From contig NZ_AP014509.1 in the NCBI RefSeq assembly GCF_000828655.1, positions 1,860,001 to 1,924,000 of the forward strand: a stretch of DNA of 64,000 bases, in the 5' to 3' direction. Source of the stretch: Thermotoga caldifontis AZM44c09 (GTDB taxonomy: Bacteria > Thermotogota > Thermotogae > Thermotogales > DSM-5069). How positions within the stretch are numbered: position 1 is the stretch's first letter; each line of letters starts with the position of its first letter. Positions 55,183 to 55,879 of the stretch are shown here, piece by piece. The notes under the pieces were generated by a model. The model made no database searches, had not been told where the DNA came from, and saw only the letters and a list, made by a program, of their open reading frames with translations. A program made the position numbers and the translations under genes.

Positions 55183-55879
55183 CACCTTTATCCCATCCTT
55201 TCGGAATGGGGGTGGACTGTATCTTCATCCAGTCCCTGAATCTCCTCGAGGGTTCGTCTCAACCTTTCGTGGTCTCCTGTGTTCATTTCCATGGCAATTT
55301 TCAGGATCTCGATGAGGCCCTCTCTCGTTAGATGTTCTCCCCGTTCCATCATCAGGATTATCCGTCTGAACTTTTTGAAATCGACGTTCTTCTTCGTCTT
55401 TAGAGGATGTTTCTCGAAGAACTCAACCACTCTCTTCAGACAGGATATCTTTCGAATTCGGAGTTCATATCGATCCTCATGATTCCTCCGTACAACGCCA
55501 CATCCGAAAAACTTCTTCAGCGCGTACAGAACCTGTATGTCCCGTTCGTGCTGAACGATCCTGAACTCGGGGAGAACCTGGTAACCTGTCTTCATGGTAC
55601 GATTCCTGTTAACTCCAACGTAGAAACAGCCTTCACCATCGACGAACCCAACGACCCAGTCGGGTTTGAGATCCAAGCATTCCACCCTCTCTCACGGGAC
55701 TGGATGCCCGGCGTACAGTCTCTGAGGATCCCCCTCATCGGGGTTTCCTGCGGATTGCCCAATCCCTTCCATTTTTACCTGGGCTGGCCACAGCCCCCAG
55801 GTAAGAAGGGCTTTAAGGGCTTTCCCGCATATAGCCGGGTATTGCCCCACAGGTTTCCCTGTGGGCAGGCAGCAACGCT
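55183..55879 (-). mobile_element. Group I intron in 23S rRNA, insertion site U1931
   Basis: The exons join as CCTAAGGT|AGCGAAATACC, the conserved sequence at E. coli 1931/1932. P1 is AGGUAGC/GCUGCCU with the U-G pair at the splice site, and P10 is AGCGA/UUGCU. P2 is CCCACAGG-GAAA-CCTGTGGG. P3 is CCCGGC (55839-55834) with GCCGGG (55712-55707). P4 is UGCGG/CCGCA, with P and Q elements. P6 is CCCC/GGGG. P7 is GACUGU (55720-55715) with ACAGUC in the S element AAGAUACAGUCC (55225-55214). P8 is ATCCAGTCCC (55705-55696) with GGGACTGGAT (55236-55227). P9 is a GAAA-capped hairpin (55210-55192). The intron ends in G. All core parts are present, so self-splicing is expected. Confidence 0.95.
55188..55685 (-). 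CDS. LAGLIDADG homing endonuclease encoded in the 23S group I intron
   Basis: 165 residues, one LAGLIDADG motif (WVVGFVDGEGCFYVGV, about residues 9-24), so it should act as a dimer that cuts intronless 23S genes at the insertion site. Family partners are single-motif rRNA intron enzymes such as those reported in Thermotoga 23S introns. The ATG follows AGAGG by 5 nt and lies just after the P8 5' strand. The last 17 or so codons overlap the P8 3' strand, the P7 3' strand and P9 of the ribozyme, and the TAA ends 5 nt before the 3' splice site. The frame appears intact. Confidence 0.94.
   Translation of the reverse strand: MECLDLKPDWVVGFVDGEGCFYVGVNRNRTMKTGYQVLPEFRIVQHERDIQVLYALKKFFGCGVVRRNHEDRYELRIRKISCLKRVVEFFEKHPLKTKKNVDFKKFRRIILMMERGEHLTREGLIEILKIAMEMNTGDHERLRRTLEEIQGLDEDTVHPHSERMG

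Follow-up and report, generated by a model that had tools for sequence, protein, structure and literature searches.

The last 16 codons of the LAGLIDADG homing endonuclease gene carried by a group I intron in the 23S ribosomal RNA (rRNA) gene of Thermotoga caldifontis AZM44c09 contain the P8 3' strand, the S element of P7, and P9 of the intron's own ribozyme. We analysed this overlap in a window of 64,000 nucleotides (NZ_AP014509.1, positions 1,860,001 to 1,924,000; all coordinates below are those of the window) and compared it across 44 introns of the same 23S site, L1931. Very probably, this is a mobile group I intron belonging with the Thermotoga L1931 introns, its P8 loop housing an I-TnaI-like homing endonuclease gene that has extended into the ribozyme core; judging from the aligned sequences, it seems to be the RNA, not the protein, that fixes the bases of the shared stretch.

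Gene tail and ribozyme core

The features concerned are as follows:
55183..55879, minus strand: group I intron of 697 nucleotides (nt) at the L1931 site of the 23S rRNA gene (Rfam RF00028 and exon match)
55188..55676, minus strand: LAGLIDADG homing endonuclease gene, TTG start, 162 codons plus TAA (Pfam PF00961 and 5gkk alignment)
55714..55720, minus strand: P7 5' strand (R element, GACUGUA), by pairing with the S element
55696..55705, minus strand: P8 5' strand (AUCCAGUCCC), upstream of the gene, by pairing
55227..55236, minus strand: P8 3' strand (GGGACUGGAU), within the gene, by pairing
55214..55225, minus strand: S element AAGAUACAGUCC, within the gene (P7 3' strand, 55215-55221)
55192..55210, minus strand: P9 hairpin with GAAA loop, within the gene, by pairing
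55188..55190, minus strand: TAA stop codon of the reading frame, 5 nt before the 3' splice site
54212..57912, minus strand: 23S rRNA gene (Rfam large subunit (LSU) rRNA match), the sole 23S gene found in the genome

P8 is paired at 10 of 10 positions (55705-55696 with 55236-55227); the 3' strand of P7, UACAGUC (55221-55215), is complementary to GACUGUA (55720-55714); P9 consists of 7 bp with one bulged U and a GAAA loop; and the reading frame is open across P8 3', S and P9. The TAA (55190-55188) is followed by the last bases of the intron, AGGTG, and then by the exon, AGCGAAAT. A sequence-only reading of this DNA had placed the P8 3' strand, the S element and P9 inside the gene's last codons and the TAA 5 nt ahead of the splice site, and coordinates and pairing bear out both statements. 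It had also let the frame start directly after the P8 5' strand; an alternative GTG start at 55685 (165 codons) lies 10 nt past P8, and the TTG at 55676 is the likelier start because it aligns with Met1 of the I-TnaI chain 5gkk and gives the 162 amino acids published for Thermotoga L1931 enzymes.

Silent variation was compared among the four distinct introns of the window's clade (the window's own, L002, L004 and L005; L002 is identical to L003 over the last 300 nt). Among codons with an unchanged residue, 1 of 14 varies silently in the tail, compared with 79 of 124 in the body (Fisher p 5e-5), and all 132 windows of 15 codons taken from the body lie above the tail. Across the six pairs, the body shows 0.28-0.76 silent differences per site and the tail 0-0.09, whereas replacement differences per site are no lower in the tail (0-0.054) than in the body (0.016-0.044). 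As had been anticipated, the silent sites of 55188-55236 are far more conserved than those of the rest of the gene, with no free drift. With silent sites frozen and the replacement rate unchanged, the constraint on the silent sites is therefore one of RNA; strong silent-site conservation in an overlap is not, on its own, proof that the encoded peptide matters. The sole silent change in the tail (CAT to CAC) and one replacement (ATG to GTG, Met to Val) would fit as opposite sides of a single P9 pair going from U-A to C-G, provided that the loop-adjacent bulged U is kept, and a second replacement (CAG to CGG) accompanies a P8 longer by two pairs; this paired-change reading of the tail rests on three changes only.

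On the protein side, the AlphaFold2 model (numbered from the GTG) has its last helix ending at residue 151, with residues 155-165 at a predicted local distance difference test score (pLDDT) below 50. The best solved relative is I-TnaI (PDB 5gkk), with Z 25.6 and a root-mean-square deviation of 0.8 over 147 residues. The structure library lists 147 residues for chain 5gkk_A, corresponding to model residues 4-150, and its 170-residue sequence matches through the tail; the chain length suggests that the tail was not modelled in the I-TnaI crystal and that the chain ends where the overlap starts. Going by the model, the tail seems to be an unordered C-terminus that the protein tolerates.

Stop positions among L1931 introns

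The scan of genome contigs gave 12 loci, and further searches counted 1299 genomes, repeats between searches included. From 112 loci, 48 distinct candidates at L1931 were cut out and 44 were kept; L061 (without an S element), L085 and L092 (another family) and L098 (core deletion) were left out, as were matches listed without a locus, and in 43 of the 112 loci no L1931 intron was found. Relatives of the window's enzyme are over-represented in the sample, and the tail supplied one of the six peptide patterns used in the scan. Among viral contigs, 13 stretches matched a pattern and none was confirmed. In L098, the S element is apparently deleted (last 60 nt of the intron) with the endonuclease frame still open, a dead intron or an assembly error.

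Pairing statistics covered 40 distinct cores, with seven pairs each for P7 and P8 and, as controls, registers slid by 1-3 and 500 shuffles. The paired share of cells is 88% for P7 (23-40% when slid) and 89% for P8 (25-44% when slid), P8 having 26 Watson-Crick pair types against 10-18 in the slid registers; 0 of 500 shuffles reached the paired fraction of P7 or P8 or the type count of P8. Double changes at 7 of 7 P8 pairs are unremarkable (4-6 in slid registers; 61 of 500 shuffles as high), and for P7 neither double changes (416 of 500 shuffles as high) nor pair types (123 of 500) stand out. The expectation of paired changes in P8 thus holds in so far as pairing is kept through many pair types, but the double-change count does not set it apart from the controls. 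By a strict pattern, the R element occurs once in each of the 44 introns; the search for P9 included GGAAAC loops.

The gene stops before S in 17 of the 44 introns, inside S in 13, and beyond it (read-through) in 14. Fifteen of the 17 earlier stops are a TGA or TAA where P8 meets S (GGATGA, GGATAA), and those inside S are its TAA (11) or its TAG (2); the stop codon is built from core bases in 28 of the 44. The frame ends before or inside S in 30 of 44, including the congener L006, whose enzyme is 76% identical to the window's, which rules out that the S element always lies within the frame. Homologous introns with S outside the frame were what the sequence-only reading had named as refuting it, and its claim that protein and ribozyme alike constrain the stretch is not supported here: the overlap and the constraint on RNA stand, but the protein seems not to constrain it, the tail being missing in 30 of 44 and predicted to be unordered.

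One phase is common to 35 of the 44 introns, and the read-through introns use all three phases through S. Because the same RNA element is read through in different phases, the tails are unrelated: GLDEDTVHPHSERMG in the window, GRDSPPQAEMSG in L009, SERESPASLETE in L015 and CEDKVQPC in L017. An open frame through such a core is in itself not rare by chance, 81 of the 132 phases (44 introns by three phases) being open through S, compared with 15 of the 44 used phases (including that of L011, whose gene stops earlier), a contrast affected by shared ancestry. Chance alone as the source of the overlap is ruled out by the silent-site test; it leaves both the silent-site freeze and the family-wide pairing of P8 and P7 unexplained.

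Stops are missed in two ways. The spacing from a conserved enzyme codon to S (six of the 44 rows lack this anchor) is 58 nt in the window's clade (4 of 4), versus 56, 59 or 62 in the 11 anchored long-spacer phase-2 core-stop introns, and it is 13 (L017) and 18 (L060) in place of 14. Base changes account for stop loss in L009 and L010 (TGA to GGA or CGA) and, within S, in L015, L018, L100 and L101 (TAA to GAA); the change of TGA to CGA in L010 is one side of the end pair of P8, A-U in relatives and G-C in L010. In L010 and L072, the terminal TGA straddles the splice junction (the last two bases of the intron, then the first of the exon), so that the excised intron would be without a stop and the stop would exist only in unspliced RNA. 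In a second L1931 group (L015, L016, L020, L047 and relatives), S lies only 14 nt past the conserved enzyme codon, compared with 51-62 nt in the window's group, and the enzyme seems to be without its last helix.

On a protein tree from which the overlap was excluded, stop versus read-through requires 7 changes (6 forced by starred branches; 7-9 over bootstraps), compared with a mean of about 12 when shuffled; the label is thus clustered by descent, as expected.

Origin of the overlap

Core creep, as proposed by Edgell, Chalamcharla and Belfort in 2011 (PMC3073962 section 7), involves stop loss after insertion, variable 3' extensions and dispensable ends, and also expects intron guanine plus cytosine (GC) content to influence stop position. 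We consider it highly probable that the window's overlap arose in this way. In the window's lineage, the gene would have crept into the core when the distance immediately ahead of the P8 3' strand came to be one base out of step (mod 3) with relatives; because of this shift the frame would miss the stop supplied by the core (GGATGAAG, TGA in frame) and run through P8, P7 and P9 to a TAA near the splice site. The ribozyme would dictate the shared bases, and the protein would put up with the resulting tail. The read-through state of the window's clade would then be a derived one, and one RNA would not be able to have the tail under translation and the core folded at the same time. Comparison across related introns suggests that the gene moves into the ribozyme and out of it again. 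Whether this extends to a general rule we regard as evenly balanced: the core would normally supply the stop, gating ribosomes out of P7, in several lineages, including the window's, a frame shift or core mutations made tolerable by pairing would have removed the gate, and the frame would be caught again just before or at the splice site.

The L1931 series shares with the published proposal the variable 3' extensions (the 17, 13 and 14 introns of the three stop classes show the variation in length between lineages that core creep expects), a possibly dispensable end (30 of 44 relatives do without the tail, which is predicted to be unordered) and stop loss as a route. It differs in adding a frame-shift route, in that the lost stop lies in the core itself, and in that the effect of GC content is not seen. 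Base-sharing between protein genes and ribozymes has so far been argued mostly from single cases; here a single site offers 44 alignable introns whose stops fall ahead of, within and past one catalytic element, with mutations that can be named, and makes the proposal of 2011 testable. If true, the general rule of a core-supplied stop would demonstrate core creep directly, by comparison at one site, with selection on the permitted frame end.

Several observations weigh against an origin by core creep. The number of changes on the tree falls to 5 without L017 and L060, and to 4 when L010, L020, L014 and L070 are removed too. The tree is unrooted and the direction of change unproved, and the core-stop congener L006 stands in an open fork with the long row L014. 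L009, L010, L017 and L060 are single metagenome-derived rows in which assembly errors are possible. The published effect of GC content on stop position was not seen among the 44 introns, where means of 0.498 in the 14 read-through introns (0.400-0.542) and 0.518 in the 30 others (0.309-0.617) differ little, relatedness not being allowed for. In 4 of 4 distinct introns from the window's clade the tail has stayed open, as it also would if the peptide were of some use.

That last point is also an argument for true dual coding, the proposal of the sequence-only reading, in which the tail peptide would be functional (for example in RNA binding by a maturase) and both protein and ribozyme would select on the stretch; it is joined by a report, at second hand in PMC3984707, of maturase-like activity in a LAGLIDADG protein of T. 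neapolitana. We think this quite unlikely, since 30 of 44 relatives lack the tail, the tails that exist are read from different phases and differ in sequence, both the model and the crystal chain length point to an unordered tail, and replacement differences per site are not below those of the body. Another view is that the tail is a merely mechanical frame and the real protein shorter or unexpressed, the overlap being an effect of annotation. It could draw on the 81 of 132 phases through cores that are open anyway and on a caution in PMC3073962 about wrongly called gene ends, but four distinct introns have no stop between the conserved fold and the TAA, so that a ribosome making the enzyme must make the tail, and the enzyme body is under strong purifying selection; we hold this view to be very improbable.

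An overlap selected for regulation would have translation of the tail unfold P7-P9 and delay splicing, the coupling serving to control the level of enzyme or rRNA. All 14 read-through frames end between -19 nt and +1 nt of the 3' splice site, compared with 19 of 66 open unused phases; the start codon is not ATG; a single 23S gene was found in the host, so that splicing matters for the host; and the td intron of phage T4 provides a precedent (PMC3073962). The clustering of frame ends is only suggestive, however, because the 14 rows come from about six lineages; the core-stop majority manages without such an overlap, and the start region has no unusual structure (z -0.97; 34 of 200 shuffles fold as well), so we rate regulation as unlikely. 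A ribosome on the tail is predicted to unfold P7-P9, and competition of translation with splicing and ribosome assembly, put forward as a necessity by the sequence-only reading, is plausible by analogy with T4 td as described in PMC3073962.

Relatives, host gene and movement of the intron

The arrangement is already known in kind, and the window's intron is a further instance in another host family. L1931 introns of 698-700 nt with enzymes of 162 amino acids were tabulated in 2007 for T. naphthophila, T. neapolitana and T. petrophila (PMC1995217 Table 1). The window's intron (697 nt, 162 amino acids) has the same 23S site by exon match, its phase and TAA position are those of L002, L004 and L005, and the 5gkk sequence matches it through the tail; it differs in host family (code f1, versus f2 for the Thermotoga introns) and in an enzyme 90-93% identical to theirs. 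In Synechococcus L1917 and L1931 introns, frames run into the core and the double role has been remarked on (PMC1995217 section 5; PMC3073962 Table 1). There, too, a gene frame doubles as core, but by the published description, on which this likeness is based, the overlap listed is longer (81 nt over P6/P7/P3/P8/P9.0/P9) and starts on the 5' side. In the T4 td intron, the 3' end of the I-TevI gene likewise forms part of P7, but the enzyme is of the GIY-YIG type, its gene lies in the P6 loop, the host gene is protein-coding, and the overlap is 20 nt (PMC3073962). No paper showing stop codons of the L1931 enzyme family within the core was found in the literature searched, although one may exist.

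The enzyme matches the PF00961 profile at 100.3 bits (cut-off 23.1), and its acidic motif GFVDGEG (G13, F14, V15, D16, G17, E18, G19) is invariant in 16 of 16 rows. The RF00028 match of the intron scores 71.9 bits (gathering score 50) over the whole model (1-253), on the minus strand within LSU rRNA, and the limits 55183-55879 are fixed by matching exons. The intron would be expected to splice itself in a reaction started by guanosine, and the enzyme to cut the intronless site and drive homing. The flanks, CCTAAGGT before and AGCGAAAT after, are the same as in the 44 kept introns. The number 1931 assigned to the site, in E. coli numbering, matches that of the Thermotoga introns in PMC1995217 Table 1.

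The rRNA operon lies on the window's minus strand in the order 16S-tRNA-tRNA-23S-5S. A single 23S locus was found in the 2.01 Mb genome, with one place for an 801-base 23S query and one for the intron junction, and no uninterrupted L1931 site was found in it; such a site is present in 3 of 11 genomes of the family.

Flanking 23S sequence of the window is 97.8% identical to that of the congener L006 and 90.4% identical to that of L002, L004 and L005, whereas in the non-coding 5' part of the intron identity is 80.3% to L006 and 93.6-94.1% to the latter three, and in the enzyme DNA 68.3% and 83.3-85.2%, respectively. With the intron closest to f2 relatives and the 23S closest to L006, these comparisons indicate that the L1931 intron moved between two Thermotogales families (codes f1 and f2), in either direction. 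The disagreement between intron and host trees fits mobility of the enzyme-bearing intron; an earlier conclusion, reported in PMC1995217, was strictly vertical descent within Thermotoga.

Two Thermotogales loci, L007 and L008, have an uninterrupted L1931 site and, just upstream, a different LAGLIDADG intron (28-35% identity), which is probably L1917. In G103:C620, G105:C244, G121:C1, G157:C44, G192:C121 and G232:C101, two LAGLIDADG matches (three in G232) lie a few hundred bases apart, which suggests adjacent introns within one 23S gene.
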